Shown here piece by piece: positions 6,805 through 61,506 of a stretch of DNA of 64,000 bases; positions within the stretch are counted from its first letter, which is position 1; every line of letters begins with the position of its first letter. Made by a program: the position numbers and the translations under genes. Below the pieces are notes generated by a model. The model was not told the DNA's origin. It ran no database searches and worked only from the letters and a program-made list of their open reading frames with translations. Origin of the DNA: Streptomyces sp. NBC_00285 (GTDB lineage Bacteria; Actinomycetota; Actinomycetes; Streptomycetales; Streptomycetaceae); NCBI RefSeq assembly GCF_036174265.1, contig NZ_CP108055.1:8246001-8310000 (forward strand). The letters are read 5' to 3'.

Positions 6805-7217
6805 ACGCACCCACTTCAGGGCCGACGCCCAGGAGAGCCACTGCCACCAGTACCAACGGCGTACGACGGCCAAGTACATGGAGTCCTTTTCCGCAGCGCC
6901 GAGGACACGGTTCACCAGTCCAGCGGTGAGGGCTCCGCCGTGAGCACCCGGAGAGCGACCGCCAGGCCCTCGACGCCGGCAACCGCGCCCGGGCCAGGGA
7001 CGGGAACGACTGCCCCGAGCCGTCCCTCCGGATCAGGACCGCCGAACAGGTCCTCGACTCCCGCGCCGCCTCCTCCGACGAACCTCCGGCACAGGACACC
7101 CGCGTACGGCCTGCGCCGCGTCCGGACCGTCCGAAAGTCGTGTCGACCGGCTCGCGCGCCCCACGCCGTCCGGGCAGGATGCTGCCCACAGACCTTCGTC
7201 CGCCCCAGGAGGACCGC
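6805..7217. other. Gene-free stretch, possible decayed coding sequence
   Basis: 413 bp. Short stretches in two plus-strand frames have protein-like composition (for example LRIRTAEQVLDSRAAS around 7030-7077), but each is soon broken by a stop or a frame change and no start or ribosome site fits. The last 15 bases hold the AGGAGG site of the M24 gene. It is best called non-coding, or a remnant. Confidence 0.35.
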
Positions 7218-8342: not shown

Positions 8343-8387
8343 CCGAGCCCAGGAGCCCTCCACCCCTCGAGCGACTACGGCGCGACC

Positions 8388-9332
8388 ATGACCCAGGCAC
8401 CGACACCCACCGCGGACACGGTCCGCCGACTGGTCCGTTCCCTGCTCAAGGACGGCACGCCCGGCGCGGGCGGACCCGAGATCCGGCCTGTCGTCGCGGG
8501 CGGACAGCACTCCACGTGGTGGGTCGGTACCCGCCATGTGCTGCGTCTTGCCCCCGACCGGGCGGCCTCCGTCCGCCGGCGCCGCGAGCTGCGCCTGCGT
8601 GACCTGGTGCGCGCGCATCTGCCGGTCGCCGTGCCCGCAGGCGTCGCGCACGGCGAGTGGGAGCCGGGGCTGGCCTACACCCTGGACACCAGGCTGCCCG
8701 GCGGTTCGGCGGAGGAGCACGACGTGTCCGCAGTCGGCGAGGCCGACCTGGCCGGACTGCTCACGGGACTGCGCGAGGTGCCGGTACGGCAGGCAGAGGC
8801 GCTCGGCGTCCCGCGCGTCGCCCCGCGCTCACTGGAGGCGCTGCGCCGTGAGGCCGGACGGGCCGTCGAGCGCCTCCGCGCGGCCGACGAGTTCGACCCG
8901 GCCCGCCTCCAGCAGCTCACCTCCGCGGCCGCCGTCCAGCTCGCCGCGCAACCGGGCGGCGCGGTCCTCGTGCACCACGCCCTGACCGGGGAACACCTCG
9001 TGGTCGGCGCCGACGGCCGGGTGCGGGGCGTCCTGGACTGGACGGCCGCGGTCGTCGGCGATCCCGCCGAGGACATCGCGGGCCTCGCCCTCGCCGTCGG
9101 CTCACCCGCCGCCGTCCGCGCCGCCACCCTCGCCGGTTACGGTGCCCGCCCCTGTCTGCGCGGCCTCTGGCTGGCCCGCTGCGACACCGTGATCCACCTC
9201 GCCGCGGGCCTGAAGGGCCGCGGGGACGCTTCGCCGGGCCTGCTCAGGACCCGCCTCGGCCGCGCCTGGGAGGCGATCCTGCTGGAACGGGTCACGGAGC
9301 TGCGGGACGAGCCGCACGACACGGAGGCGTAG
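8388..9332 (+). CDS. Aminoglycoside-phosphotransferase-like protein with degenerate catalytic loop
   Basis: 314 residues with the overall order of the APH/choline kinase fold: an N-terminal nucleotide-lobe region (VVAGGQHSTWWVG...VLRLAP), then a C-lobe with the catalytic loop and the metal-binding loop GVLDWTAAVVGDPAEDIA. The catalytic loop, normally HGDxxxxN, reads HHALTGEH at 196-203. The catalytic Asp is Ala198 and the Asn is His203, while the DFG-equivalent Asp217 is kept. The usual Lys position looks like Arg53. It is therefore probably a pseudokinase or an ATP-binding protein with altered chemistry. A true APH-like kinase with an intact HGDALPRN loop lies at 26752-27606 for comparison. 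It sits 45 bp after the M24 peptidase. Confidence 0.75.
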   Translation: MTQAPTPTADTVRRLVRSLLKDGTPGAGGPEIRPVVAGGQHSTWWVGTRHVLRLAPDRAASVRRRRELRLRDLVRAHLPVAVPAGVAHGEWEPGLAYTLDTRLPGGSAEEHDVSAVGEADLAGLLTGLREVPVRQAEALGVPRVAPRSLEALRREAGRAVERLRAADEFDPARLQQLTSAAAVQLAAQPGGAVLVHHALTGEHLVVGADGRVRGVLDWTAAVVGDPAEDIAGLALAVGSPAAVRAATLAGYGARPCLRGLWLARCDTVIHLAAGLKGRGDASPGLLRTRLGRAWEAILLERVTELRDEPHDTEA

Positions 9333-9447
9333 GCGGCTCCACATGGCACACGGCCTTCGGCGAGGTCGTCGTCCGCGGTCTGCGCATACCTGCCCGTCAC
9401 CAGGCACCGGCCGCCCTGTCCGCCCTCGCGTGAGCCGGCCCGTCGGG

Positions 9448-11193: not shown

Positions 11194-11330
11194 GGACGGT
11201 CCCCTTCGTCTGCTCACCGTGATGTAGCCCGTCCATGGTGCTTCAAACGAGATCGGTGCGCCTTTGAATCTTCCCCGTTTGTGACAGGTGTCGCCAGGTA
11301 CGCGCGTGTGGCGGCCGTAGTCTCGTTTTC

Positions 11331-11366
11331 TGGACACCCGGGGTTCACTGCCCGACAATCACCAAC
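11331..11366 (+). promoter_or_regulatory. Candidate promoter giving a leaderless FHA mRNA
   Basis: TGGACA at 11331-11336 and GACAAT at 11354-11359 are separated by 17 bp, close to the housekeeping consensus. The predicted start point (about 11366-11367) falls on the GTG start codon at 11367. No ribosome-binding site precedes that GTG, which fits a leaderless transcript. This is my reading of motifs, not measured. Confidence 0.5.
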
Positions 11367-11918
11367 GTGACGTCGTCCTTCGAGTTCAACACGTACCCCG
11401 CGCGGTTGTCCGACGCGGAGCGCGACAAGGCGCTGAAGGTGCTCCGTGACGGCGCCGCCCTGGGCCGCCTCTCGCACGACACGTTCGTGCGGCGTATGGA
11501 ACTGGCCCTCATCGCGCGCCGGTCCGACGAACTCGTCGCGCTCACCGCCGACCTGCCCCAGGAGAGCCGGGTCTCCCGCCTGGTGTTCGGCACCGTCGAG
11601 GCCGTCTCCGGCTTCACCGTACGGCTGCGCAGGGCGTGGCAGGCCGAGCGCCTGCCCAAGCTGCTGCTGCCGCACCCCGGCAGCGGCCACGCGCTGCGCA
11701 TCGGCCGCGATCCGGCGAACGGCCTGCGGCTGACCCACGAGACGGTCTCCCGTGTCCACGCCGAACTCAGCCGGCAGGGCGGCATGTGGGTCCTGCGGGA
11801 TCTCGGTTCGACCAACGGCACCACGGTCAACGGACGGCGGGTCACCGGTTCCGCCGTCGTCCGCGAGGGCGATCAGGTCGGGTTCGGCCGGATGGCCTTC
11901 CGGCTCGCCGTCAACTGA
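11367..11918 (+). CDS. DUF1707 and FHA domain protein
   Basis: 183 residues. The N-terminal DUF1707 domain (about 8-65, RLSDAERDKALKVLRDG...LSHDTFVRRMELAL) is joined to a C-terminal FHA domain (about 100-180), which binds phosphothreonine. FHA signatures are present: IGRDPANGLRL, the conserved Ser/His in VSRVHAELS, and LRDLGSTNGTTVNG. The phosphothreonine-contacting Arg, Ser and Asn are all in place, so binding is likely. There is no membrane segment. It probably reads out Ser/Thr kinase signalling; partners are not visible here. GTG start without ribosome site. It is divergent from treZ. Following gene: an M14 peptidase 138 bp on. Confidence 0.9.
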   Translation: MTSSFEFNTYPARLSDAERDKALKVLRDGAALGRLSHDTFVRRMELALIARRSDELVALTADLPQESRVSRLVFGTVEAVSGFTVRLRRAWQAERLPKLLLPHPGSGHALRIGRDPANGLRLTHETVSRVHAELSRQGGMWVLRDLGSTNGTTVNGRRVTGSAVVREGDQVGFGRMAFRLAVN

Positions 11919-12056
11919 GCCCAACCTCACCTCTGGCCTGGGCTTTACGTGCCGTCGCGGTTCAAAACCCTTTCCCTCGCGCGGTGTTGACGTACCCCCC
12001 AAGTCGTGACTGACTGTGCGTACACCATGCACACCAGGTGAATCGACGGCACCATA

Positions 12057-13421
12057 TTGTGGAGGTGTGCCCTGCCGCCCCTCCTCCGCTACCCGACCGT
12101 CGACGAGCTGGGCGCACGGGCCGCAGCCCTCGTGGCCCGCCATCCCGCGGACGCCCGACTGCGCCGGGCAGGCACCTCCCGCGCGGGCAACCCCCTGTGG
12201 CTGCTCTCCGTCGGCCACGGCAGCCGCCAGGCACTCGTCGTCGCCGGACCGCACGCCAACGAGCCCGTGGGCGGCGGCACCGTCCTCAGACTGGCCGAGC
12301 GGGCCCTGGCCGACCCCCGGCTCACCGTCGGCGCGGACGCCACCTGGAACCTCCTGCTCTGCCTCGACCCCGACGGCCTGCGCCGCAACGAAGGCTGGCT
12401 GCGCGGCCCTTACTCCCTGGACCGTTACTTCCGGAACTTCTTCCGGCCGGGCTTCGGTGAACAGCCGGAATGGCTGCCCGACGGCGCGGAGGCCGCCGCC
12501 CTCCCGGAGACCCGCACCCTCCTCGCCCTCCAGGACGAGCTGCGGCCCTTCCTCCAGTGCTCCCTGCACGGCGTCGACGTCGGCGGCGGTTTCGTCGAGC
12601 TCACCCACGACCTGCCCGGCATCGCCCGCCGCGTCGCCCACACCGCGGCCCTGCTGCGCATCCCGCGCGAGCTCGGCCCGTACGACACCCTGTACTGGCC
12701 GTGCCTCGGTCCCGCCGTCTACCGGATCCCGCCGCCCCGCCGCGGCGACCTGGCCGCCGCCATCACCGAGGCCGCCGTCGAGTCGACCTGGTACCACCCG
12801 CACCGGTACGGCACCGTGACCGCCGTCGTCGAGGCGCCCATGTGGGGCGTGGCCGCCGTCGAGGACAGCAGTACGCCCGCCGACGCGGCCGCCGTGCTGC
12901 GCACCGTCAGCCACACGCTGCGCCGGGACGCGCGGATCCTGGAGGACGTCCTGGCGCGGATCCGCCCGTACGTCTCGGGTGCCCCGGACGCGGCGCGGCT
13001 GCTCGCCCCGGTCGAGGACTATTTACTGGTCGGCCCCGGACTCGCCGACGCGTGGGACCCCGACGTCGCCGACGGCGTCCGTCCGCTGCCGCCGCTCAGC
13101 ACCGGCCACCTGTCCGCCCTGCGCATCGCGGGGCGCCGCCTCGCCCTGCGCACGGCCGGGCTGCTGCACCAGCTCGTGACCCGCGCGGGCGCCGGCCCGG
13201 CGGGCGCGCTGCCGGAACTGGACCGGCTCATCGACGCCTGGTGCGACGACTACCGCGACGGGTGCGGGGCGCAGTGGATCCCGGTCCCGCGCCAGATCGA
13301 GTACCAGTCGCGGGTCGTGCTCGCCGCGTTCGAACTCGCCGCGCTGCACGCGCCCGCCCGCTCCCGTTCGGGTGAGTCCGGGTGGGGTTCCGAGGCCGCC
13401 GTGCCGATGCATCAGGAATGA
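12057..13421 (+). CDS. M14 family zinc carboxypeptidase-like protein (copy 1)
   Basis: About 454 residues. The N-terminal part is an M14 carboxypeptidase domain. Zinc ligands are HANE (His66, Glu69) and the later His171 in CSLHG; the catalytic Glu259 is in TAVVEAPMWG. The C-terminal 150 residues are family-specific. No signal peptide is obvious, so cytoplasmic action is possible. The start is uncertain: the frame begins at TTG 12057, but a GGAGG site at 12061-12065 better suits an unusual CTG at 12072. No ATG or GTG lies in frame near the conserved LLRYPT start. Its stop overlaps the ATG of the SSI-like inhibitor gene by 4 bases, implying coupled translation. A paralogue lies convergently at 13874-15151. 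Confidence 0.88.
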   Translation: MWRCALPPLLRYPTVDELGARAAALVARHPADARLRRAGTSRAGNPLWLLSVGHGSRQALVVAGPHANEPVGGGTVLRLAERALADPRLTVGADATWNLLLCLDPDGLRRNEGWLRGPYSLDRYFRNFFRPGFGEQPEWLPDGAEAAALPETRTLLALQDELRPFLQCSLHGVDVGGGFVELTHDLPGIARRVAHTAALLRIPRELGPYDTLYWPCLGPAVYRIPPPRRGDLAAAITEAAVESTWYHPHRYGTVTAVVEAPMWGVAAVEDSSTPADAAAVLRTVSHTLRRDARILEDVLARIRPYVSGAPDAARLLAPVEDYLLVGPGLADAWDPDVADGVRPLPPLSTGHLSALRIAGRRLALRTAGLLHQLVTRAGAGPAGALPELDRLIDAWCDDYRDGCGAQWIPVPRQIEYQSRVVLAAFELAALHAPARSRSGESGWGSEAAVPMHQE

Positions 13422-45070: not shown

Positions 45071-46768
45071 TCACGACAGTGCCTCCTCGGACGCGCGGGA
45101 GGCCCAGGCGGCGAACCGCTCGCCGTCCTCGCGCTCGGCCTGGAACCGCTTCAGGACCCGCTCGACGTAGTCGGGCAGTTCCTCGGAGGTGACCTTCAGG
45201 CCGCGCACCTTGCGGCCGAACCCGGCCTCCAGGCCGAGCGCGCCGCCCAGGTGCACCTGGTAGCCCTCGACCTGCTCGCCCCGGTCGTTGAGCATCAGCT
45301 GGCCCTTGAGACCGATGTCCGCCACCTGGATACGGGCGCAGGCGTTCGGGCAGCCGTTGAGGTTGATGGTCAGCGGCTCGTCGAAGTCCGGGACGCGGCG
45401 CTCCAGTTCGTCGATCAGCTGGGAGCCGCGCGCCTTGGTCTCGACGATGGCGAGCTTGCAGTACTCGATGCCGGTGCAGGCCATGGTGCCGCGCCGGAAC
45501 GGGGACGGCTTGGCGGTGAGGTCGAGCGCCTGCAGGGCCTCGACGAGCGGCTGGACCTGCGACTCCTCGACATCGAGGATGATCATCTTCTGCTCGACGG
45601 TGGTCCGGACCCGGCCCGAGCCGTGCGTCTCCGCGACCTCGGCGATCTTCGTCAGGGTGGCGCCGTCGACACGGCCGACACGCGGGGCGAAACCGACGTA
45701 GAACAGACCGTCGTTCTGGCGGTGCACGCCGACGTGGTCGCGCCACTGGCCCGCGGGCTCGGCGGGCGCGGGACCGTCGACCAGCTTGCGCTCGAGGTAG
45801 TCGTCCTCCAGGACCTGGCGGAACTTCTCCGGGCCCCAGTCGGCGACGAGGAACTTCAGACGGGCACGCGTCCGCAGCCGCCGGTAGCCCCAGTCCCGGA
45901 AGATGCCGACCACGCCGGCCCACACGTCGGGCACCTCGTCCAGCGGCACCCAGGCGCCGAGCCGGACGCCGAGCTTGGGGTTGGTGGACAGGCCGCCGCC
46001 GACCCACAGGTCGAAGCCGGGGCCGTGCTCGGGGTGCTCGACGCCGACGAAGGCGATGTCGTTGATCTCGTGGACCACGTCGAGCAGCGGCGAACCTGAG
46101 ATCGCCGTCTTGAACTTGCGGGGCAGGTTGGAGAACTCCTTGCTGCCGATGTACCGCTCGTGGATCTCGTCGATCGCCCAGGTGCCATCGATGATCTCGT
46201 CCTCGGCGATCCCGGCGACCGGCGACCCGATGACGACACGCGGGCAGTCGCCGCAGGCCTCGGTGGTGGAGAGACCGACCGCCTCCAGGCGGTTCCAGAT
46301 CTCCGGGACGTCCTCGATGCGGATCCAGTGCAGCTGGATGTTCTGCCGGTCGGTGATGTCCGCGCTGCCGCGCGCGAACTCCTCGGAGATCCCGCCGATC
46401 ACACGCAGCTGCTGGGTGGTGAGGCGTCCGCCGTCGATCCGCACCCGCAGCATGAAGTACTTGTCGTCCAGCTCCTCCGGCTCCAGGATCGCGGTCTTGC
46501 CGCCGTCGATCCCGGGCTTGCGCTGGGTGTACAGCCCCCACCAGCGCATCCGGCCGCGCAGGTCGTTGGGGTCGATCGAGTCGAAGCCCCGCTTGGAGTA
46601 GATCGTCTCAATGCGTGTCCGCACGTTGAGACCGTCGTCGTCCTTCTTGAACTGCTCGTTGCCGTTCAGCGGGGTGTGGTGCCCCGCGGCCCACTGACCC
46701 TCACCGCGGTGACGGCTCACCTTGCGGCGGGGCGCTGCGGCGGCAGGGTTCTGCGGGGTGGCGGCCAT
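45071..46768 (-). CDS. sir: Sulfite reductase (ferredoxin type, siroheme/4Fe-4S)
   Basis: 565-residue nitrite/sulfite reductase family hemoprotein. Two ferredoxin-like half-domains alternate with two siroheme domains. The cluster/siroheme cysteines are in MACTGIEYCKLA (near 430) and LNGCPNACARIQ (near 470). It reduces sulfite to sulfide with six electrons from ferredoxin. It is first of the block sir-(zinc ribbon)-cysH-cysC-cysD-cysN. ATG 46768. A cysteine-containing leader peptide and two inverted repeats lie upstream, suggesting control by cysteine supply and by a repressor. Confidence 0.96.
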   Translation of the reverse strand: MAATPQNPAAAAPRRKVSRHRGEGQWAAGHHTPLNGNEQFKKDDDGLNVRTRIETIYSKRGFDSIDPNDLRGRMRWWGLYTQRKPGIDGGKTAILEPEELDDKYFMLRVRIDGGRLTTQQLRVIGGISEEFARGSADITDRQNIQLHWIRIEDVPEIWNRLEAVGLSTTEACGDCPRVVIGSPVAGIAEDEIIDGTWAIDEIHERYIGSKEFSNLPRKFKTAISGSPLLDVVHEINDIAFVGVEHPEHGPGFDLWVGGGLSTNPKLGVRLGAWVPLDEVPDVWAGVVGIFRDWGYRRLRTRARLKFLVADWGPEKFRQVLEDDYLERKLVDGPAPAEPAGQWRDHVGVHRQNDGLFYVGFAPRVGRVDGATLTKIAEVAETHGSGRVRTTVEQKMIILDVEESQVQPLVEALQALDLTAKPSPFRRGTMACTGIEYCKLAIVETKARGSQLIDELERRVPDFDEPLTINLNGCPNACARIQVADIGLKGQLMLNDRGEQVEGYQVHLGGALGLEAGFGRKVRGLKVTSEELPDYVERVLKRFQAEREDGERFAAWASRASEEALS

Positions 46769-50771: not shown

Positions 50772-52406
50772 TCAGGCCCCCGGATCGGCCCGGTCCACCA
50801 CGCTCGTCAGATCCAGGCTCGTCGGCAGTGTGCCGAAGGCCGCTCCCGCGTCGCCGCCCAGGCGGGACGCGCAGAACGCGTCGGCCACCTCCGGGGGCGC
50901 GTGGCGGACGAGCAGGGAACCCTGCAGGACCAGCGCGAGGCGTTCCGTCACACGGCGGGCACGGCCCTCGATGCCGTCCAGATCGGCCAGTTCGGTGAAG
51001 AGGTCCTTGGTCGCCGCGTCCAGGCGGTGGTCGGCGCCCCGGGACTCGCCGATTTCCAGAAGGTAGGCGTTCAGGGCCTGGGGTTCTCGTCGCAGGGCCC
51101 GTACGACGTCCAGTGCCTGGACGTTTCCCGCGCCCTCCCAGACCGAGTTCAGAGGTGATTCGCGGACCAGGCGGGGCAGGCCCGACTCCTCCACGTAGCC
51201 GTTGCCGCCCAGGCATTCGGCGGCTTCCGTGGTGAGGGGCGTACAGCGTTTGGTGATCCAGTACTTCGCCGCCGGGACCGCGATCCTCAGGAACGCGTGC
51301 TCCTGTTCGCCGCCCGTGTCGTAGGCGGCTGCCAGACGCAGGGCGAGGGTGGTCGCGGCTTCGGACTCCAGGGCCAGGTCGGCCAGGACGTTGCGCATCA
51401 GCGGCTTGTCGACGAGTTTGCCGCCGAAGGCCTCGCGGTGGGTGCAGTGGTGGATCGCCTGGGCCACGGCCTGGCGCATCAGTCCTGCCGAGCCCACGGC
51501 GCAGTCGAGGCGGGTCGCGGCGACCATCTCGATGATGGTGCGGACCCCGTCCCCCTCGTCGCCCACCCGGCGGGCCCAGGTCCCGTCGAACTCGACCTCT
51601 GCGGAGGCGTTGGAGCGGTTGCCGAGTTTGTCCTTGAGGCGCTGGAGGAGAAACGTGTTGCGGGTGCCGTCCGCCAGGACGCGGGGGACGAGGAAGCAGG
51701 TGAGTCCGCCCGGGGCCTGGGCGAGGACCAGGAAGCCGTCCGACATGGGGGCCGAGCAGAACCACTTGTGGCCGGTCAGCTCGTAGGTCTCGCCGTCGGG
51801 CAGCGGCCGCGCGGACGTCGTGTTCGCCCGGACGTCGCTGCCGCCCTGCTTCTCCGTCATGCCCATCCCGAACAGGGCCCCCGCCTTGAGATGGGCGGGC
51901 CGCAGTCCGCGGTCGTAGACCGTGGAGGTGAGGCGGGGTTCCCACTCGGCGGCGAGGTCCGGGTCGGTGCGCAGGGCGGGTACCGCCGCGTGGGTCATCG
52001 ACAGCGGGCAGCAGTTGCCGGCGTCGACCTGCGTCCACAGCAGGAACGCGGCCGCCCTTCGCACATGCCCGCCGGGGCGGGTCCAGGCGGCGGTCAGGCC
52101 CGCGGAGACGCCCTTGCCGAGCACCCGGTGCCAGGCCGGATGGAACTCGACCTCGTCGATCCGGTGGCCGTGGCGGTCGTGGGTCCGCAGCCGGGGCGGG
52201 TTGTCGTTGGCCTGGGCGCCCCACTCCTGCACCTGTGCGGAGCCGCAGGCCCGGCCGAGCGCCGACAGCTCGCCGTCGACCTCGTCGAGCAGGTCCGGGT
52301 CGAGGTGCCGTTCGACGGCCGCCGTCAGGGCGCGGTCGGCGCTGTAGACGTCGTAGCCCGTCAGGGGCGGGGGCTGGTTGGTCACGGTGTGCGTGGTGCC
52401 TGCCAT
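50772..52406 (-). CDS. Acyl-CoA dehydrogenase, AidB-like
   Basis: 544 residues, longer than ordinary acyl-CoA dehydrogenases and of AidB (alkylation-response) type. MTEKQGGSDVRANTT and HKWFCSAPMSDGFLVLAQ are the FAD-contacting blocks of AidB proteins; CLGGNGYVEES is the C-terminal signature, and ESPLNSVWEGAGNVQALDVVRAL is typical. AidB binds DNA and FAD and is linked to resistance to alkylation; the enzymatic substrate is not known. ATG 52406. Monocistronic with terminators at both ends. Confidence 0.9.
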   Translation of the reverse strand: MAGTTHTVTNQPPPLTGYDVYSADRALTAAVERHLDPDLLDEVDGELSALGRACGSAQVQEWGAQANDNPPRLRTHDRHGHRIDEVEFHPAWHRVLGKGVSAGLTAAWTRPGGHVRRAAAFLLWTQVDAGNCCPLSMTHAAVPALRTDPDLAAEWEPRLTSTVYDRGLRPAHLKAGALFGMGMTEKQGGSDVRANTTSARPLPDGETYELTGHKWFCSAPMSDGFLVLAQAPGGLTCFLVPRVLADGTRNTFLLQRLKDKLGNRSNASAEVEFDGTWARRVGDEGDGVRTIIEMVAATRLDCAVGSAGLMRQAVAQAIHHCTHREAFGGKLVDKPLMRNVLADLALESEAATTLALRLAAAYDTGGEQEHAFLRIAVPAAKYWITKRCTPLTTEAAECLGGNGYVEESGLPRLVRESPLNSVWEGAGNVQALDVVRALRREPQALNAYLLEIGESRGADHRLDAATKDLFTELADLDGIEGRARRVTERLALVLQGSLLVRHAPPEVADAFCASRLGGDAGAAFGTLPTSLDLTSVVDRADPGA

Positions 52407-52589: not shown

Positions 52590-53573
52590 TCAGGCGAGGT
52601 GGGCCATCACCTCCGCCGGCTCGTGCACCGGGTCCACCTCGGGGACGCCGTGCGGCCAGCCCGCCTGGTACACGGTGTCGAGGTAGCGCTCGCCGAGGTC
52701 CGGGGCGATCCCGACCGCGGTGATGCCGCGCCGGCCGTGGGCGGACAGCCACTGCTGGGCGCCGCTGACGACCGTGCCGGTGGAGCCGCCGAACAGGAAA
52801 CCCCGGGCGGCCATCCGGCGGCACGCCTGCAGGGTGTCCGGTTCCTCGACGAGCACCACGTCGTCGATGTACGACCTGTCGAGCAACTGCGGTCGCACGC
52901 TGGTGCCGAGCCCCGGGATCATCCGGACGCCGGGCGGCCCGCCGAAGGTGACCGAGCCGACGCTGTCGACGGCCACGATCCGCACCGGGCGCCGCCACTG
53001 CCAGAACCAGCGGGCGCAGCCCATCAGGGTCCCGGTGGTGCCGGCCCCGACGAACAGGACGTCCAGGTCGGGGAAGCGGCGCGCGATGTCCGGCGCGGTG
53101 GTGCGGTAGTGCGCCCGCCAGTTCCCCTGGTTGCTGTACTGGTTGAGCCACACGTACCGCTCGTCCGAGGCGCACAGCGCGCGCACGTACGCGAGCCGGG
53201 CGCCCAGGTAACCATCGTGCAGGTTCGGCTTCCTGACGACGTGCACCCGGGTGCCGAGTGCCTCCATCAGCCGGATCGTCACCAGGTTGCACCGGGTGTC
53301 GGTCACGCACAGGAACCGGTAGCCCCGGCTCGCCGCGATCATGCTCAGGGCCACTCCCAGGTTCCCCGACGACGACTCGACCAGGATCGACCCGGGCCGC
53401 AGGGTCCCGTCGCGCTCGGCGGCGTTCACCATCTCGCGGGCCGCCTTCAGTTTGATGGACCCGGCGAAGTTGAAGCCCTCGCACTTCAGGAACAGCGGTA
53501 GCTCCAGCGCCGCCCGCAGGTCGACGTAGAGGTCGGACTCGTTGAACTCCGAAGGATCGGATATGACGGGCAT
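52590..53573 (-). CDS. sbnA: N-(2-amino-2-carboxyethyl)-L-glutamate synthase, SbnA-like
   Basis: 327-residue PLP enzyme of the cysteine synthase superfamily. SbnA joins O-phosphoserine and glutamate to N-(1-amino-1-carboxyl-2-ethyl)-glutamate, the first step to L-2,3-diaminopropionate. The PLP Lys is Lys41 in FNFAGSIKLKAA; the substrate loop is SSSGNLGVALS and the phosphate-binding Gly loop FVGAGTTGTLMG. The ATG at 53573 has a GAGGAGGGGG site. It is last of a six-gene operon and 31 bp after sbnB. The pairing with sbnB separates it from ordinary CysK/CysM. Confidence 0.95.
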   Translation of the reverse strand: MPVISDPSEFNESDLYVDLRAALELPLFLKCEGFNFAGSIKLKAAREMVNAAERDGTLRPGSILVESSSGNLGVALSMIAASRGYRFLCVTDTRCNLVTIRLMEALGTRVHVVRKPNLHDGYLGARLAYVRALCASDERYVWLNQYSNQGNWRAHYRTTAPDIARRFPDLDVLFVGAGTTGTLMGCARWFWQWRRPVRIVAVDSVGSVTFGGPPGVRMIPGLGTSVRPQLLDRSYIDDVVLVEEPDTLQACRRMAARGFLFGGSTGTVVSGAQQWLSAHGRRGITAVGIAPDLGERYLDTVYQAGWPHGVPEVDPVHEPAEVMAHLA

Positions 53574-53604
53574 GACGCCCCCCTCCTCATGCGCCACTGA
53601 TCGT

Positions 53605-54636
53605 TCAGCCGTACCGGCGCAGCTCGTTGAAGAACCCGTCGACGACGTGCAGTTCGCCGCTCCGGGCCAGTTCGTCGTGGACGAACCTGCCGACGGCGAG
53701 GTCCAGGACCCCCAGTCCGAAGGGCGAGAACACCACCGTCCGGTCCGTCGGGACGGTCACCCGTCCGGTCAGCACGTCGTCGAGCGTGCCGTCGATGAAG
53801 TCCCTGCTCCCCGTGAGCTGTTCGGCCAGATGCGGGGAGGTCTCGGCCTTGAGGCAGTGCTCGACGTCGTCGACGAAGTTGGCGGACGCGAGCAGGATCT
53901 CCGGGTCGAGATCACGCAGGGAGACATGCAGGACCAGGGGGTGATGGCCGAACCACGACGGATCGTGGACGTGCGGTGCGCCGGCGACCGTGGCGAAGAC
54001 CACCAGGTCACTGGAGCGGATGAGGGACTCGGCCGTGTCGTGCACGGTGACCTTGCCCGGGGCGCCGGACCGCTCCAGATAGCCGCGGAACCCGGCGGCG
54101 CTCCCGGCGGACAGGTCGTGCACGCCGGTCTCCTCGAACTCCCAGCCGGTGGCGGTGAGATGGGTGTGGATGTAGCGGGCGATGAGGCCGGTGCCGATGA
54201 ACCCGACGCGGGCGGGGCGGACCCGGCCCGCACTGAGCCTGTCGGCGGCCAGAGCCGCGGACGACGCCGTGCGCGTGGCGCTGATGACCGAACTCTCCAG
54301 ACAGGCGAACGGATAACCGGTGTCCGGGTCGTTGAGGATCAGCACCGCGGATGCCCGCGGCAGCCCGGACTCGATGTTCCCCGGGAAACTGGAGACCCAC
54401 TTCAGACCGTCCACCCGCAGCGGTCCGCCCAGCGAGGCGGGCAGCGCGATGATCCGGGACGACGGGCGGTCCGGGAACTTCAGGAAGTACGACGGGGGGT
54501 TCACCGAGTCGCCCGCGCCGTGCAGCCGGTACACGGCCTCGACGAGGTCCGCGATCTCCGGTTCCCGTCCGTACAGGGCCTGTTGGACCTGCTTGCCGGT
54601 GACGAGCGCGAAGGAGGGAGCGCCGACGGTGCTCAT
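53605..54636 (-). CDS. sbnB: N-carboxyethyl-glutamate dehydrogenase, SbnB-like
   Basis: 343-residue member of the ornithine cyclodeaminase/mu-crystallin family. SbnB oxidises the SbnA product with NAD+, releasing L-2,3-diaminopropionate and 2-oxoglutarate. The NAD motif GFIGTGLIARY lies near residue 145, with substrate-side GLKWVSSFPGN near 78. The ATG overlaps the end of the dioxygenase gene (4 bases). The 2-oxoglutarate released is a cosubstrate for that dioxygenase. Confidence 0.95.
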   Translation of the reverse strand: MSTVGAPSFALVTGKQVQQALYGREPEIADLVEAVYRLHGAGDSVNPPSYFLKFPDRPSSRIIALPASLGGPLRVDGLKWVSSFPGNIESGLPRASAVLILNDPDTGYPFACLESSVISATRTASSAALAADRLSAGRVRPARVGFIGTGLIARYIHTHLTATGWEFEETGVHDLSAGSAAGFRGYLERSGAPGKVTVHDTAESLIRSSDLVVFATVAGAPHVHDPSWFGHHPLVLHVSLRDLDPEILLASANFVDDVEHCLKAETSPHLAEQLTGSRDFIDGTLDDVLTGRVTVPTDRTVVFSPFGLGVLDLAVGRFVHDELARSGELHVVDGFFNELRRYG

Positions 54637-55619
54637 ACGCCGCTCACCTCGCCGTCGGTCCGCAGTACCGGGTCGCCGAGCGCGGCCAGCACCTCGCGCG
54701 GCCCCTCGAAGGGCTCGCGGCTGTGCGCCGTACGGATGTTGTCGACGAGCAGCAGGTCACCGTCCTGCCACGGCTCGCGCACGGTGTGGGCGTCGTACAC
54801 CTCGTTGATGATCCGTACGACGTCCGCGTCGATCGGATCGCCGTCCCCGAAGCGGGTGTTGAAGGGCAGTCCGTCAGGTCCGTACACGTCCAGCAGGTAC
54901 TCACGCACTTCCGGCTCCATGGTCCACTCGTTGAGGAACGCGATCTGGTTGAACCAGCAAGGCAGGTCGCCGGACGGATGCCTCAGCACCGCGCCGCGCC
55001 GCTGCCGGGTGTGCAGCGAGCCGTCGCTCTGCCAGGCGCACTCGATGGCGTGCCGGCGGCAGTAGCGCTCGACGGCCGCGCGGTCGTCCGTGCCGAAGGC
55101 CTCCTCGACCGACGCGCCGATGTCCTCGTGGTACGACCGGGTCAGCAGCCAGCCCTCCCGCTCGAAGCGGGAGACCAGGTCGCGGGGCAGGTCCCGCAGC
55201 ACCGCCGACGCGTCGGCGAGCGCGGTCGCGCCCCCCGATGCGGGCGCCTCCAGACAGGCGAACAGCAGCAGACCCGGGAACTCCAGGCCGTAGCTGATCT
55301 CGTGGTGCATGCACATCTGCTGGGTCGGCGGCCACTTGGTCGACGAGTACACGCCGTCCGCGTAGCGGCGCCGGGGTGCGAAGGGCTCACGGTCAGCCAT
55401 CAGGCTCTCCGTCAGCAGCCGGAAGACGCCCTCGGCCGTCGTGGGGTCGGCGAGACCGAGCCCGCGCACCAGGACACAGCCGTGTTCGAGGACCAGGGCC
55501 CGCAGCGGGTCGCGGTGCGCGGCGACCCAACTCGCCGGGTCGTCGCCGTACTTGGCGTTCAGGAGCGGCGGGCTGCCCGGAGCGAGGTCGAGGTGCGGAA
55601 GGAGACTCGTGGATGACAT
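54633..55619 (-). CDS. TauD/TfdA-type Fe(II)/2-oxoglutarate dioxygenase (SyrP-like)
   Basis: 328 residues. The facial triad is His105-x-Glu107 (MHHEISY) and His299 (TAHSREPF), with the 2-oxoglutarate-binding Arg probably in GPREVL (Arg308). LEFPGLLLFACLEAPASGGATAL is typical of the SyrP/clavaminate synthase-like branch. SyrP hydroxylates a carrier-bound amino acid in NRPS pathways. The triad acidic residue is Glu rather than Asp, as in some SyrP-like enzymes. Placed between the adenylation-carrier gene and sbnB, it probably oxidises the activated amino acid or the product. ATG 55619 with an AAAGGA site. Confidence 0.88.
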   Translation of the reverse strand: MSSTSLLPHLDLAPGSPPLLNAKYGDDPASWVAAHRDPLRALVLEHGCVLVRGLGLADPTTAEGVFRLLTESLMADREPFAPRRRYADGVYSSTKWPPTQQMCMHHEISYGLEFPGLLLFACLEAPASGGATALADASAVLRDLPRDLVSRFEREGWLLTRSYHEDIGASVEEAFGTDDRAAVERYCRRHAIECAWQSDGSLHTRQRRGAVLRHPSGDLPCWFNQIAFLNEWTMEPEVREYLLDVYGPDGLPFNTRFGDGDPIDADVVRIINEVYDAHTVREPWQDGDLLLVDNIRTAHSREPFEGPREVLAALGDPVLRTDGEVSGV

Positions 55620-55632
55620 CTCGGTGTTCCTT

Positions 55633-57720
55633 TCAGCTGTTCCGGTCGAGCAGGCCCGCCAGGTCCGCGAGGACCGGGTGGCGGACGACGTCCTTGAGGG
55701 TGATCGCCCGGTCCAGGGCGATCGCGAGACGCACGGCGGACAGCGAGCTGCCGCCGCGGTCGAAGAAGTGGTCGAGGCGGCCGACGCGGTCCACCGGGAC
55801 ACCGAGCACCTCGGCCCAGGCGTCCGCCAGCCGTCGCTCGCCCGCCGTCACGGGCTCGTCCGCCGCGCCGGCGTCGAGGCCCTCGGCGAGCGCGGTGAGC
55901 GTGCGGCGGTCGGTCTTGCCGTTGGCGGTCAGCGGCAGGTGCTCCCGCCAGTGCACGACGGCCGGCACCATGTACGACGGCAGCGACACGGCCAGCCGTT
56001 CGCGCACCGCGTCCGCGCCCACCGGCTCGGTCCCGGCACAGAACGCGGCGAGCTGAGTGCCCCGCACCACCACGACGGCCCCGTCGCGCACCCCGTCCAC
56101 CCGCAGCAGCGCGTTCTCGATCTCGCCGATCTCCACGCGGAACCCGCGGATCTTGACCTGGGTGTCCCTGCGGCCGAGGAACTCCAGCCTGCCGTCGGGC
56201 CGCCAGCGCCCCACGTCGCCGCTGCGGTACAGCCGCTCCCCGGGCCGGTGGGGGTCCGCCATGAACGCGGCCGCGGTGCGTTCGGGGTCGTTGACATACC
56301 CGCGCCCCACGCACACCCCGGAGAAGACGATCTCGCCCGGCGCGCCCAGCGGCACGGGGACCAGGTTCTCGTCGACGACGTACACACGCACATTGCGCAC
56401 CGGCCGGCCGAGCGGGACCCGGTCGCCGTCCGGCACCCGGTCCATGACCTCGTGGTTGGTGTCGTCGGAGGTCTCGGTGAGCCCGTAGGCGTTGGCGAGG
56501 CGGATCCCGGGCGCGGTGGCGAACCATCGCTGCACCAGCTCCCGCTTCACCGCCTCGCCGGTCACCGACACACAGCGCAGGTCGGCCAGTTCACGCGGCC
56601 GCTGCCCCAACTCCGCGAGCACGGCCTCCAGATACGACGGCACGACCTGGAGCACGTTGACCCGTCCCCGGACCACCGTGTCCACGAACCGCGGGACGTC
56701 GAGGATCGTGTCCTGCCCGATCAGCAGGGTCCGCCCGCCCACGAGGGTGGCGGCCAGCAGCTGCCACAGGGAGATGTCGAAGCACTGCGGCGCGGTCTGC
56801 GCGACCACGTCCCGCTCGCCGATCCCCAGGTCCTCGACCTTGGCGAGGACGTGGTTGACGAAGCCGGCGTGCTCGCACATCGCGCCCTTGGGCTCGCCGG
56901 TGGAGCCCGACGTGAAGTAGATGTAGGCCAGTTGGTCCGCCGAGACCGGGATGGCGAGATCGCCGTCCGGGTGGCCCTCGGCGTACGCGTCGGCCACGAA
57001 CAGGGTCCGGGCCGGCGTACCGGAGAGCGAGCCGGTGCTGCCGTGCTCGGTGACGACGAGTTCGCAGCCCGCCCGGGACAGCGTCCTCGCGACCCGCTCG
57101 GCCGGGAAGTGCGGCTCGACCGGCAGGTACACCCCGCCCGCCTTGAGCACGCCGAGCACCGCCGCCATCCAGTCCAGGGTGCGCTCCATGACGACGGCGA
57201 CGACACCCTCGGCCTCAAGTCCGCGGGCCAGCAGCGCCCGACCGACCTGGTTCGCGCGGGAGTTGAGCTCCGCGTACGACCACTGCCGTTCGCCCTCCAC
57301 GGCCGCCACGGCGTCCGGGTGCTTCTCGACCCGCTCCTCGAAGAGCTCGTGCACCCGCCGGTCCGGGAGTTCACGGACCGGGCCCGCCAACTCCTCCAGC
57401 TGGAAGCGGAGTTCCTCCTCGGACAGCAGGCTCGTGCGGTCCGGGTGGGCGAGCGCGGTGAGGTGGTAGCCGGCGATGCGGGCGGCGGCAGCGGCGTCGA
57501 GGACGCCGGTGCGGTGACGCAGCCGCAGGGTGCCGTCGGTGACGCTGACCCGCAGGTCGTCGCCGGGCGTGCCCTCGGCCTCGCCCGAGAGGGCGGCGAG
57601 GACCCTGGCGTGGGCCGTCAGCAGCGAGGTCGGGTCGGTCGGTGTGCCGTCGGGCAGTGGGACCGCGTACTCCGTGACGTCCGGTGTCGGACCGGATGCC
57701 GGGTGCGGAACTGGTTCCAT
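55633..57720 (-). CDS. NRPS adenylation-carrier protein (A-PCP)
   Basis: 695 residues. About 100 N-terminal residues look like the tail of a condensation-type domain (ARIAGYHLTALAHPD). An adenylation domain (about 115-605) follows with core motifs YFTSGSTGEPKG (A3), NAYGLTETSDD (A5), YRSGDVGRWRPDGRLEFLGR (A7 region, in part) and NGKTDRRTL (A10 Lys). The carrier domain has the phosphopantetheine Ser in DRGGSSLS (near 657). By hand alignment to PheA the pocket residues read D, I, W, Q, S, T, A, D, D, K; I cannot assign this code. The first Asp indicates an alpha-amino acid. L-2,3-diaminopropionate is the expected substrate from the neighbouring genes. No condensation or thioesterase domain and no MbtH protein nearby. 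Confidence 0.93.
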   Translation of the reverse strand: MEPVPHPASGPTPDVTEYAVPLPDGTPTDPTSLLTAHARVLAALSGEAEGTPGDDLRVSVTDGTLRLRHRTGVLDAAAAARIAGYHLTALAHPDRTSLLSEEELRFQLEELAGPVRELPDRRVHELFEERVEKHPDAVAAVEGERQWSYAELNSRANQVGRALLARGLEAEGVVAVVMERTLDWMAAVLGVLKAGGVYLPVEPHFPAERVARTLSRAGCELVVTEHGSTGSLSGTPARTLFVADAYAEGHPDGDLAIPVSADQLAYIYFTSGSTGEPKGAMCEHAGFVNHVLAKVEDLGIGERDVVAQTAPQCFDISLWQLLAATLVGGRTLLIGQDTILDVPRFVDTVVRGRVNVLQVVPSYLEAVLAELGQRPRELADLRCVSVTGEAVKRELVQRWFATAPGIRLANAYGLTETSDDTNHEVMDRVPDGDRVPLGRPVRNVRVYVVDENLVPVPLGAPGEIVFSGVCVGRGYVNDPERTAAAFMADPHRPGERLYRSGDVGRWRPDGRLEFLGRRDTQVKIRGFRVEIGEIENALLRVDGVRDGAVVVVRGTQLAAFCAGTEPVGADAVRERLAVSLPSYMVPAVVHWREHLPLTANGKTDRRTLTALAEGLDAGAADEPVTAGERRLADAWAEVLGVPVDRVGRLDHFFDRGGSSLSAVRLAIALDRAITLKDVVRHPVLADLAGLLDRNS

Positions 57721-57792
57721 GACTTTCTTCCCCCTGTGTCTTCTCCGTGCAGGTCGTGCAGGTGGTGCGGGTCGTGCGGGCGGTGCGGCGGT

Positions 57793-60261
57793 TCAGGCGC
57801 GGCGCGGTGCCACCGCCGGGTTGCCGCCCCAGTGCGCCCCCGGCGGCATCTCCTCGCCCTTCATCAGGAAGGAGTCGGCGGCGAGTACGGCGCCGTCGCC
57901 CATCGAGACGCCGTAGTGGACCAGCGCGCCCGCCCCGAGGGTGCAGCCGTCGCCGATGACGATGTGGTCGGACTTGAAGGTGCCGTCCTCCTGTGAGTGG
58001 GCCTGCACCTTGGAGTGGGCGCCGAGCGTGGTGTCGCTGCCGATCGAGACCAGCGTCCGCTCGGTGACGTAAGCGCCGTCGTCGAAGACCCGGTGGCCCA
58101 GGCGCATCCCGAGCGCCCGCCAGACGAGGTTCTTGAACGGGGTGCCGTTGAACACGGCGAGGTGGTGGTCGGGCACCTTCCACAGCCGCTCGTGCCACCA
58201 GAAGTACGGGTCGTAGATGGAGCACAGCCGTGGCTGGAGCGGCCGGAACCGGGTGATCACGCGCTCCACCAGCGCCCAGTAGGAGGTGGTCAGCAACAGG
58301 CCGGCGATCAGGTAGCCGCCGATGAGCAGGCCACCGCGGGCGCCCTGGCCGCCGTAGAGGTCGACGGCCGCGAAGCCCAGCACCGTCAGCAGGAACCAGT
58401 GCAGCCACCGCAGGAACAGGAACAGGGCCATCGTGCGGGCGTTGGAGCCGTTCTTGGCCGAGAGGCGGCGGCCCAGCTCGTCGCCCTCGCGGAGGTGGTC
58501 GAAGCGGGTGTCGCGTTCCACAGTGCGCGGGATCTCGAAGGGGGGCGAGCCCAGGAGGCCCACGCCTTCGCGGAGTTCACCGTCGAGGGGTACCAACACC
58601 TTGGTGGCGAGCAGGCAGTTGTCGCCGGTACGGCCGCCGACCGGGTAGGCGATGTGGTTGCCGAGGAAGTTGTGCGCCCCGATTGCGACCCGCGAGATGC
58701 GGAACGAGGTGCTGGAGTACTCGGCGTTGAGGACCGAGAGCCCGTCGGCGACCATCGTGCCGCTGCCGACGGTGGCCAGGTACGGCGTCTCGTGCGAGAC
58801 CTCGGTGCCGAAGTTGGAGCCGGTCTGCTCGACGGTCGACAGGTTGTAGCCGATGGACCGCAGGTAGGGGACGATGTACGAGCTGTCGCCGCACAGCCAC
58901 TTGAAGAACCTGATGTTGGTCAGGCGGGCGATCGCGCGCTGCACCGAGTAGTGGAAGCCGTACAGCGGATAGACGCGGTCCGCTCGCAGCGTCAGGTTCA
59001 GCAGCCGCGGCAGCACGGTCACGGTGACGAGGCCCACGAGGATCGCCCCGACGAAGAAGGCGACGGACAGGGCCAGCGCCTCGCCGTAGAAGGCCGTCGA
59101 CTGCAGTTCCTTGGCGTTCGGTTCCAGGAGCGGGTCCAGCGCCGGTACCAGGTCCAGCACCAGGAAGGTGCCGCCGAGGCCGAGCGGGACGTACACCAGC
59201 AGTGTCTGCAGCAGGGCCACCAGCGCGTAGCCGGCCCGGCGCGGAGTGGTGCAGCGGGCCGCGGGGACGCGGATGTGGTCCACGTCGGTGCGGCGGGCCG
59301 GGGAGCCGTGCCAACGCTGGCCGGCGGGGATCGCGGCGCCGTCGTACAGCGCCGAGGAGTGGCCCAGCTGTCCTCCGTTGCCGATCGAGGTGCCGATGTC
59401 GAGGACGGTCTTCTCGCCCACGAAGACGTCCCGGCCGAGGGTGACAGGGCCGGTGCGGATCCGGCCCGCGTGCGCCCGGTAGCCGAGGAACAGGGCGTCC
59501 TTGCGGATCACCGTGCCGGCGCCGACGGTCAGCAGGTCGGTGCAGACCGGCACCGAGTGGGACAGGATCGTGACGCCCGGACCGATACGGGCACCGAGGG
59601 CCCGCAGGTAGAGGACGTACAGCGGGTTGCCGGTGAACAGGATCATCGGGTTGGCGTGCAGCAGCACCTTGACGGTCCAGAAGCGGACGTAGGCGAGGCC
59701 CCACACCGGGAACTCCGTCTCCTTCCACCGGCCGACGAGCACCCACTTCGCCACCACGGGCAGCGTGCACACCGCAAGGAAAAGAGCACCGCCGAAGACC
59801 AGCGAGCGCAGATAGACGGAGAGGACGCCGTCGCCGCCGGATATCCAGGAGTACCCCTCGGCCATGGCGGTCCCGGCACCGAGGCAGTACACGGCGAAGA
59901 CCAGGAACTGCAGTACGCCGCACAGAACATAGCGCGCGGTGCTGCCCGGCGGCGGAGGCGGCTCGGCGGGTCGCGCGGGAGCCGGTGCGACGGCCGGGGC
60001 CTCGGTGAGCGCCGCCGCCAGAGCGCGGATCGTCGGGTGGCCGTAGACGTCCCTCATCGACACCGACGGCAGGTCGTCCCGCTTCCTGACCCGGGCGCAG
60101 AACTGCGCCATGACCAGGGAGTTGGCGCCCAGGTCGTCGAAGAAGTGGCTGTCGAGGGGGACATGCTCGCTCTTCACGACCCCGGCCAGCACCTCGGCGA
60201 AGACCTGTGCGGTCCTGTCCACCGGGGCGACTGTCGTGATCTCGCCGGGATTTACCACCAC
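57793..60261 (-). CDS. Pls-type carrier-membrane-acyltransferase-like NRPS protein
   Basis: 822 residues. An N-terminal carrier domain (Ser48 in DDLGANSLVMAQF) and a Pro-rich linker are followed by six membrane helices in three pairs. After each pair is a soluble domain with left-handed beta-helix character (GAGTVIRKDALFLGYRAHAG, GGRTGDNCLLATKVLVPLDG, GDGCTLGAGALVHYGVSMGDG). This is the TIGR02353-type C-terminal architecture of epsilon-poly-lysine synthetase (Pls) and poly-diaminopropionate synthetase, where the three domains act as amide-forming condensation sites. In Pls, adenylation, carrier and membrane parts are one chain of about 1,300 residues. Here the adenylation part is a separate protein, and the length equals Pls minus its A domain. 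It starts 36 bp after the DUF418 gene. Confidence 0.93.
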   Translation of the reverse strand: MVVNPGEITTVAPVDRTAQVFAEVLAGVVKSEHVPLDSHFFDDLGANSLVMAQFCARVRKRDDLPSVSMRDVYGHPTIRALAAALTEAPAVAPAPARPAEPPPPPGSTARYVLCGVLQFLVFAVYCLGAGTAMAEGYSWISGGDGVLSVYLRSLVFGGALFLAVCTLPVVAKWVLVGRWKETEFPVWGLAYVRFWTVKVLLHANPMILFTGNPLYVLYLRALGARIGPGVTILSHSVPVCTDLLTVGAGTVIRKDALFLGYRAHAGRIRTGPVTLGRDVFVGEKTVLDIGTSIGNGGQLGHSSALYDGAAIPAGQRWHGSPARRTDVDHIRVPAARCTTPRRAGYALVALLQTLLVYVPLGLGGTFLVLDLVPALDPLLEPNAKELQSTAFYGEALALSVAFFVGAILVGLVTVTVLPRLLNLTLRADRVYPLYGFHYSVQRAIARLTNIRFFKWLCGDSSYIVPYLRSIGYNLSTVEQTGSNFGTEVSHETPYLATVGSGTMVADGLSVLNAEYSSTSFRISRVAIGAHNFLGNHIAYPVGGRTGDNCLLATKVLVPLDGELREGVGLLGSPPFEIPRTVERDTRFDHLREGDELGRRLSAKNGSNARTMALFLFLRWLHWFLLTVLGFAAVDLYGGQGARGGLLIGGYLIAGLLLTTSYWALVERVITRFRPLQPRLCSIYDPYFWWHERLWKVPDHHLAVFNGTPFKNLVWRALGMRLGHRVFDDGAYVTERTLVSIGSDTTLGAHSKVQAHSQEDGTFKSDHIVIGDGCTLGAGALVHYGVSMGDGAVLAADSFLMKGEEMPPGAHWGGNPAVAPRRA

Positions 60262-60297
60262 TTGAGCTCCTAGATCATTACTTTTTGTCTTATTGGG

Positions 60298-61506
60298 CTA
60301 TTCGATGTACTTGGTAAGTCGGGCCGGGCTCTCCACCGGTTCCGGGGACCGGGGTGGTGTTACGGCCTCGCGACACCGTCGGGCCGCGCCTGCGACGACC
60401 GTTTCCAGCGGGCCACGTCCGACGTGCCGCCACGAGAGGGCGAATAGGAGCGCTCCGGTGCTCATGACGGCGTAGAGGAGCTCGGGGGAGCCGGAAAGCG
60501 CGCCGGTGGCGAGAAGGAGCACGTGGGCGGTGTAGAGGGTCAGCGGCATGCTGCCCGCCGCCGCGAGCGGTGTGAGCACCCGCGTGAGAGGGGCGCTCCT
60601 GGTCAGCAGCAGGGCGCCGCCGAGGATCGCCGCAGCCGAGCCCAGGGTGAGGAGCATGTCGAACGGCGTGGTGGTGTGCGGCGCGCGGGAGAGCAGCGCC
60701 CACCAGGTCGCGCCGTCGGGGCTGTCCCACAGCGCCTCGGCGCGGGAGGCGCCCGGGAACTCCGCGCTCCACAGGTGTCGTAGCCCGTCGAACCGGAACA
60801 GGACCAGGGAGGACACCAGCCAGACACCGGCAAACAGGGCGAGGCCGCCCCCGAGCAGTCGGGGCGCGACCCTTCGTGACGTCAGGTCCAGTCGGCCGAG
60901 GGCGAGTCCGGCGCACAGATAGGCGGTCCAGGCGAGCACCGGGTAGGCGCCGTGCACGAGCAGGTCGGACACCAGTCCGAGCGGATCGGTGACCACGTCC
61001 TGGAGGGTCGGATCGCCGTCGAAGGCGGGCTCCGGCAGCACACCCCGCAGCGCGTGGACGGCGAACGGCGCCCCCACGGCCAGGAACAGCGAGAGACAGG
61101 CCAGGAACCGGGGGCCGAGGCCCAGCAGCGGGATCGCGATGAGGAACAAGAGGGCGTAGAACACCAGGATCACGTCGACGTCCAGGTCCGCGGCGCGCGA
61201 GGCGTAGCCGAGCAGCAGCCCGATCAGTGCGATGACGCCGGCCCGCACCGCCACCGCGACGGTCGCGGGCCGTCCGGTCGCCGGCCACCGGCCGCCCGTC
61301 GTGAAGGCCAGCCCGATCCCGGCCGTCACGGCGAACGTCGCCGAGGAACGGCCGCCCGCGAACATCCAGGCGTACGTGGGCGATCCCGTCGCGTCGAATG
61401 CGCCGAACACATGAACGGAGAACATGCCGAGCAGGGCGAGGCCCCGCGCCACATCGACCCCCACGATTCGCGGCACGGCATGCTTCGGTGCATACGGAAC
61501 AGGCAT
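60298..61506 (-). CDS. DUF418/DUF1624-type membrane protein (acyltransferase-like)
   Basis: 402 residues with about ten membrane helices. The N-terminal VGVDVARGLALLGMFSVHVFG is the signature of the DUF1624/DUF418 heparan-alpha-glucosaminide acetyltransferase-like superfamily, whose members move acyl groups across membranes. First gene of the six-gene operon, 36 bp before the Pls-type gene. Roles to consider: acylation or capping of the product, export, or self-protection. ATG 61506 with a TGGAGA site; a 10-bp palindrome GAGAATTCTC overlaps the ribosome site (61507-61516). Confidence 0.85.
   Translation of the reverse strand: MPVPYAPKHAVPRIVGVDVARGLALLGMFSVHVFGAFDATGSPTYAWMFAGGRSSATFAVTAGIGLAFTTGGRWPATGRPATVAVAVRAGVIALIGLLLGYASRAADLDVDVILVFYALLFLIAIPLLGLGPRFLACLSLFLAVGAPFAVHALRGVLPEPAFDGDPTLQDVVTDPLGLVSDLLVHGAYPVLAWTAYLCAGLALGRLDLTSRRVAPRLLGGGLALFAGVWLVSSLVLFRFDGLRHLWSAEFPGASRAEALWDSPDGATWWALLSRAPHTTTPFDMLLTLGSAAAILGGALLLTRSAPLTRVLTPLAAAGSMPLTLYTAHVLLLATGALSGSPELLYAVMSTGALLFALSWRHVGRGPLETVVAGAARRCREAVTPPRSPEPVESPARLTKYIE

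Follow-up and report, generated by a model that had tools for sequence, protein, structure and literature searches.

Few cationic homopolymers are known from nature. Their Pls-type synthetases are, in the accounts cited here, single chains without a separate tether on which the monomer could be tailored before polymerisation. PDAPs of Streptomyces albulus PD-1 is such a chain, consisting of an adenylation (A) domain, a peptidyl carrier protein (PCP) domain and a transmembrane (TM) region; the genes for its monomer, L-2,3-diaminopropionate (Dap), lie elsewhere in the genome, and plain poly-Dap gives a mass spacing of 86.05 Da (PMC4668381). The known polymers also include a comb-like Dap polymer (PMC9606270, PMC10522769). 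In streptothricin biosynthesis the stand-alone A domain ORF19 extends an epsilon-oligo-beta-lysine chain begun on the carrier of ORF18 (PMC9606270), and thus a two-protein oligomer maker, of another type, is already known. In capreomycin biosynthesis the Dap-specific CmnA-A1 loads in trans the carrier of CmnI, which has no A domain (PMC12400406). Described here is a 64,000-nucleotide stretch of Streptomyces sp. NBC_00285 (contig NZ_CP108055.1, positions 8,246,001 to 8,310,000; referred to as the window), in which a Pls-type membrane synthetase and its A domain are encoded by different genes, beside Dap supply genes and an oxygenase gene. No description of a split Pls or split TIGR02353 system was recognised in the open-licence literature, most subscription journals being outside that search.

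Six genes run in the same direction on the minus strand at 52590-61506 (Table 1), as claimed in the initial annotation, and encode in turn a DUF418-like membrane protein, a PCP-TM synthetase, an A-PCP protein, a TauD-family oxygenase, SbnB and SbnA. Intergenic gaps are short and the SbnB and oxygenase genes overlap by 4 bases, thus the arrangement is operon-like. Five of the genes, without the DUF418-like gene, form a conserved unit, which is genuine and widespread and belongs with the Pls-type system as a variant, not as a category of its own. The cassette is read here, with a probability of about one half, as making an oxidised, Dap-derived cationic oligomer or polymer. The reading starts from gene content, domains, conservation, intact motifs and shared frames, all of which are directly observed.

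The 822-aa membrane synthetase matches TIGR02353 with 760 bits (cut-off 423) at residues 113-816, covering the full model, and PP-binding at residues 23-85; no AMP-binding match was found in it in the family-model scan. An AlphaFold2 model built with 48 sequences (mean predicted local distance difference test, pLDDT, 78; predicted template modelling score, pTM, 0.81) shows the carrier followed by three pairs of long helices (108-141/146-176, 339-371/389-422 and 593-636/641-669), each pair with a beta-rich domain after it. Because the helices are paired, the carrier and soluble domains would be expected on the same side of the membrane, presumably the cytoplasmic one. The C-terminal domain is similar to hexapeptide acyltransferases by sequence and fold, and the membrane region is without ordinary condensation and thioesterase domains. 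The TIGR02353 region of Pls-type enzymes, with three TM pairs and three tandem soluble domains, is therefore present, but A, PCP and membrane region are not in one polypeptide, since a different gene encodes the A domain. Among the relatives only L164, with the membrane part first, and the single-chain L162 and L163 carry all three in one frame. Of 130 membrane-protein frames, among which the window's own occurs more than once, 123 have a single PP-binding carrier. Two carriers are found in two frames (L166, L207) and three in one (L207); the four frames without any are L054, L126 and L190, each cut at a locus end, and L208.

The 695-aa protein shows AMP-binding, AMP-binding_C and PP-binding matches in the same scan. 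The phosphopantetheine serine can be read in both carriers, in GGSSL of the A-PCP protein (PCP1) and in GANSL of the membrane protein (PCP2). A separate A-PCP protein, an A-less Pls-like architecture (PCP, six TM helices and three domains) and two carrier domains had all been proposed from the sequence alone, and the family models, with AlphaFold2 for the architecture, agree on each. The pocket code DIWQSTADDK is present in 102 cassette A domains, selected by the start of the code itself, and the last letter is unread in one further domain; the full A-domain listing contains no cassette A-PCP with a different code start. The exception adjoining a membrane gene is the AMP-binding protein of L170, which falls outside the nonribosomal peptide synthetase (NRPS) group. 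No published meaning for the code was found in the open-licence literature. Its acidic residues, Asp at positions 8 and 9, would suit a small cationic side chain, and Trp at position 3 is shared with serine- and threonine-type codes, which occur in the window genome.

The strongest evidence for the substrate is the presence of SbnA and SbnB in the unit. SbnA gives 378 bits with TIGR03945 (curated cut-off 350), the sole match over cut-off in the genome, and SbnB gives 402 bits with TIGR03944 (curated cut-off 327). Both curated cut-offs for the L-Dap synthase pair are thus exceeded, in agreement with the Dap supply originally assigned to these genes, and Dap is the likely substrate of the cassette A domain. 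An SbnB homologue of Streptomyces scabies, encoded near sbnA and an NRPS gene, is produced with potato tuber (PMC11479980), and sbnA/sbnB are reported in Saccharopolyspora clusters (PMC11162802).

The oxygenase, matching TauD with 149 bits, has the fold of the TauD-superfamily Fe(II)/2-oxoglutarate oxygenases and their metal triad. The triad HxE/D...H is kept in 97 distinct oxygenase sequences (99 rows, in which the window's sequence occurs three times). Fold comparison recovered the superfamily and indicated no specific reaction; "SyrP-like" is a label of the initial annotation only, and the protein is assigned here to the TauD family. In L174 the A-PCP and TauD parts are joined by a short linker in one frame, and L164:4161-11132 (-) is a single 2,323-aa open frame consisting of PCP and membrane part, A, PCP and TauD. 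These fusions are consistent with an oxygenase that probably acts on a substrate tethered to PCP1.

Relatives of the 822-aa protein number 152 in named species genomes, and the best 80 of the 152 comprise 79 from Streptomyces and one from Kutzneria. Of 150 genomes sampled from the genus, 50 contain a relative of the membrane protein (a protein frame, not necessarily a whole cassette) at E <= 1e-100, thus the product should be findable. In G060 and G096 this frame is of the single-chain type, at about 1,400 aa, and in G105 it is 2,327 aa long; the rest are shorter. Of 346 genomes sampled across the phylum, five gave matches at E <= 1e-60; three of the five belong to this genus and two do not. 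Loci outside the genus contain SbnA and A-PCP frames as well, with a TauD frame in one genome. The A-less form is common, not singular.

The neighbourhood was compared at 110 loci, made up of the best 80 of the named-species scan and 30 hand-picked from the genus sample, many of them divergent; near relatives common to the two sets were kept. Where at least 7.5 kb lies downstream of the membrane gene, A-PCP, oxygenase, SbnB and SbnA are all present at 89 of 96 loci. Gene order is identical at 91 of 95 five-gene loci, and SbnA is inverted and upstream in the other four; content thus stays the same where order changes. In a comparison of 20 loci, six of which are listed, the five genes recur in nearly all others and flanking genes in fewer. 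Conservation of the unit excludes chance association. None of the five conserved genes encodes an exporter.

Seven of the 96 loci are incomplete. L162 and L163 are single-chain, and L170, a locus beginning at the end of a contig, keeps the oxygenase without a matching A-PCP. Three orphan A-less copies (L166:8167-11505, L167:8532-11351 and L180:8696-11596) have no A-PCP match nearby; each of their genomes has another copy, that of the L180 genome being the full cassette L189. A-less proteins therefore neighbour an A-PCP nearly always, as the 89 full sets show, but with exceptions; whether they always do was the proposed check. The seventh, L184, has membrane gene, A-PCP and SbnA, together at 7703-13038 (+) and 6308-7501 (-), and no match to the oxygenase or SbnB; it is possibly a reduced cassette. 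A different arrangement is seen outside the genus in genome G399 (L207/L208), where several membrane and A-PCP frames are clustered and two and three tandem carriers occur; the arrangement there is unsure, L208 being a short contig and L207 containing 130 N.

In the proposed mechanism, SbnA and SbnB would supply Dap, the A domain of the A-PCP protein would activate it and load PCP1, and the TauD-family oxygenase would oxidise or otherwise modify it there. The aminoacyl group would then pass from PCP1 to PCP2, the carrier of the membrane protein. As single-chain Pls-type enzymes do, the TIGR02353 region of this protein may link residues by way of the side-chain amine. Carrier-to-carrier transfer is somewhat favoured over its absence, and to the same degree the product is expected to be a polymer or oligomer. 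In-trans Dap loading by CmnA-A1 and the single-chain Dap polymer enzyme of PMC4668381 support this reading. It is tentatively suggested, at slightly less than even odds, that the membrane polymerase lost its A domain and that each Dap is first oxidised on a recruited NRPS module, so that about a third of Streptomyces species would make modified poly- or oligo-diaminopropionates of a new class. If true, the cassette would exemplify the insertion of an oxidation step into homopolymer synthesis; loading would be separated from polymerisation, and the membrane region could take defined aminoacyl carriers in vitro.

Several points weigh against the mechanism or its proposed origin. C3-hydroxylation of Dap should yield an unstable hemiaminal, and for this reason a reaction other than C3-hydroxylation would be expected of the oxygenase. 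At L184 membrane gene, A-PCP and SbnA are kept, and matches to the oxygenase and SbnB are lacking. All enzymes of the Pls class are reported to conserve Asp at code position 1 and Glu at position 3, and the PDAP synthetase has Phe at position 2 (PMC10522769). The cassette code has the Asp but carries Trp in place of the Glu, although the acid may sit at other positions in other A domains according to the same source. The single-chain codes read here are DAESIGTVVK (37 frames) and DFECLSVVTK (L162, L163).

The N-terminal and C-terminal regions of the A-PCP relatives provide further points of this kind. The second half of the condensation model gives a weak N-terminal match in all three A-PCP relatives scanned, at 24 to 29 bits, all below the Pfam cut-off of 30.6, and two of the three are listed without a stretch of their own. 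In the window's own 695-aa protein the Pfam scan found no condensation or thioesterase match; by comparison with these relatives, what precedes its A domain is probably the shortened remainder of a condensation domain. A thioesterase domain over the Pfam cut-off terminates two of the three relatives, and with phmmer a thioesterase region was found in 55 of 103 A-PCP proteins (of the 48 without, L043 and L102 are cut at a contig end), which might release a monomer or short product. The serine motif GHSSG is present in 49 of 56 hydrolase rows. Presence and absence require at least four changes on the tree, and no thioesterase region was found in any of 32 examined loci of the window's branch, a count which includes L043 and leaves out ten further members, the window among them.

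In the best of the alternatives, a split Pls produces unmodified poly- or oligo-Dap; both carriers are loaded directly by the A domain, and the oxygenase acts elsewhere or at the chain end only. One A domain loading two carriers in trans is reported for capreomycin (PMC12400406), plain poly-Dap is known from S. albulus (PMC4668381), a joint Pls/cassette A-domain clade is not rejected by the approximately unbiased (AU) test, and L184 has an A-PCP with no oxygenase match. However, the oxygenase accompanies the synthetase genes in 89 of 96 loci with its triad kept, shares a frame with the A-PCP twice, and the code DIWQSTADDK is unlike the Pls-type codes read. This alternative is considered unlikely.

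Teichoic acid D-alanylation uses a ligase, a carrier and a membrane acyltransferase. By a similar logic the membrane protein could move one or a few (oxidised) Dap residues onto an envelope or small-molecule acceptor, and no polymer would be formed. The hexapeptide acyltransferase-like C-terminal domain, the lack of an exporter among the five conserved genes and the thioesterase region in 55 of 103 A-PCP proteins would fit this. Nevertheless, those enzymes of characterised function that share this membrane region (Pls, PDAPs, PosA) act as polymerases (PMC4668381, PMC10522769), the membrane architecture is fully retained, and the multiplied carriers of a few copies suit chain growth. Transfer to such an acceptor is considered quite improbable. 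Least probable is a small non-polymeric Dap metabolite (dipeptide, heterocycle or dehydro-Dap product) formed by a single condensation on the membrane protein, for although oxygenase and thioesterase recall the way in which small-molecule NRPS pathways tailor and release their products, and the unit has only one A domain, the same polymerase precedents, kept architecture and multiplied carriers speak against it, as does the lack of a thioesterase region in the 32 window-branch loci (L043 cut at the contig end), where release is thus independent of a fused thioesterase.

The oxidised Dap oligomer or polymer thus remains the preferred product, and its cassette appears reassembled, not cut: a Pls-type enzyme may have lost its A domain and then have been fed by a recruited NRPS module, which would provide the separate tether for the oxygenase to work on. 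A FastTree tree built on the membrane region unites the A-less proteins with the L164 frame (0.93), L164 being the first to branch; this group adjoins the single-chain L162/L163 (joint node 0.61) and is far from 31 other single-chain enzymes. Two cautions apply to this history: both values are those of the tree after re-rooting, and the distant single-chain enzymes align poorly with the cassette proteins. The branch length of 3.3 between cassette and epsilon-poly-lysine-type membrane regions needs care for the same poor alignment: aligned column by column, the two share only 9 conserved columns, and with hhalign no more than the last 87 columns could be aligned.

In a tree of 12 cassette, 10 single-chain, 22 NRPS and 3 outgroup A domains, the cassette domains cluster together (100) and fall outside the NRPS and Pls domains (94 in the Shimodaira-Hasegawa-like approximate likelihood ratio test, SH-aLRT), while the Pls domains are placed with some NRPS domains (95). 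A forced clade of cassette and Pls A domains costs 15.8 log-likelihood units but is not rejected (AU p 0.208), and common descent of the two counts against recruitment to that extent. Recruitment of an NRPS module as the A-PCP half is preferred over Pls fission on the relatives' architecture and the pocket code, more than on the tree. Pocket code and, to a lesser degree, the tree make the cutting of one Pls gene the less probable history. The original term "split Pls" thus holds for an A-less TIGR02353 protein with its own carrier and a separate A-PCP, but is less well supported as fission, since architecture and code fit recruitment better.

Table 1. Features of the Dap cassette and its accessory gene in the window
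Feature	Coordinates	Strand	Remarks
SbnA homologue	52590..53597	-	L-2,3-diaminopropionate supply; TIGR03945; alternative ATG start at 53573
SbnB homologue	53605..54636	-	L-2,3-diaminopropionate supply; TIGR03944
TauD-family Fe(II)/2-oxoglutarate oxygenase	54633..55619	-	328 aa from likely ATG; TauD match
A-PCP protein, 695 aa	55633..57720	-	AMP-binding, AMP-binding_C, PP-binding; code DIWQSTADDK
PCP1 (first carrier, on A-PCP protein)	55648..55833	-	residues 630-691; Pfam PP-binding; GGSSL serine
A-less membrane synthetase, 822 aa	57793..60261	-	N-terminal PCP and TIGR02353 region
PCP2 (second carrier, on membrane protein)	59992..60207	-	residues about 19-90; Pfam PP-binding; GANSL serine
Accessory DUF418-like membrane protein	60298..61506	-	HGSNAT_cat; possible acyltransferase; outside conserved unit

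The upstream membrane protein matches Pfam HGSNAT_cat with 31 bits (cut-off 22); no DUF418 model was reported for it in the family scan, and the name is that of the initial annotation, which had counted it as part of the set. It was rejected as a member of the unit, as a match is found somewhere in only 14 of 110 loci. An AidB-like acyl-CoA dehydrogenase, 50772-52406 (-), downstream of SbnA, is also found near the closest cassettes but is absent from many others and was likewise rejected. A 565-aa frame at 45071-46768 (-) may be related to nitrite/sulfite reductases. The window genome (10.3 Mb) also encodes one single-chain TIGR02353 enzyme with a frame of 1,323 aa; this Pls-type enzyme, G000:C1:2319434-2321452 (L192), has the code DAESIGTVVK common to the 37 single-chain frames. 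The single-chain L162:8381-15412 (-), with the code DFECLSVVTK, has an amino-acid kinase and a class III aminotransferase as neighbours, which would suit diaminobutyrate supply, and is perhaps a poly-diaminobutyrate cluster. The neighbours of L163 are transporter genes and a reductive-aminase-like protein. In PMC4668381 accession EXU92121.1 is given for the verified Dap enzyme NjxB and EXU92123.1 for an NRPS of the same strain that is predicted for glutamine. This accession spacing would fit the cassette order SbnB, TauD, A-PCP and is a lead only; against it, NjxA is EXU92816.1 and another NRPS in the table of that paper is also predicted for glutamine.

In the SyrB1/SyrB2/SyrC system a stand-alone A-PCP protein tethers the substrate, a non-haem iron enzyme tailors it and it is shuttled from carrier to carrier. 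The cassette resembles it in the A-PCP, in the non-haem iron enzyme, in the proposed hand-over between carriers and in the alpha/beta hydrolase region of many relatives. It differs in that the receiver is of the polymer synthetase type and that the hydrolase motif has a serine (GHSSG), the hydrolase not being found in 32 examined loci of the window's branch. Compared with streptothricin ORF18/ORF19, a diamino-acid oligomer logic spread over separate proteins is shared; ORF19, however, drives chain growth itself, and the streptothricin account in PMC9606270 mentions no TIGR02353 protein or monomer oxygenase. CmnA-A1/CmnI is similar in that one Dap A domain serves a carrier on another protein, but CmnI has a condensation domain (PMC12400406), whereas the receiver here is a TIGR02353 membrane protein. 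PDAPs likewise takes Dap from a cysteine-synthase-like and ornithine-cyclodeaminase-like pair and has the membrane region with three tandem domains (PMC4668381), but in the window the Dap genes are inside the operon and the A domain is separate. Like the Pls-type synthetases in general (epsilon-poly-lysine synthetase, PosA), the cassette has a carrier, a six-helix membrane region and three tandem soluble domains; unlike them, it has no A domain ahead of that carrier, a separate A protein with Trp and not Glu at position 3, and a second carrier and an oxygenase in the unit.

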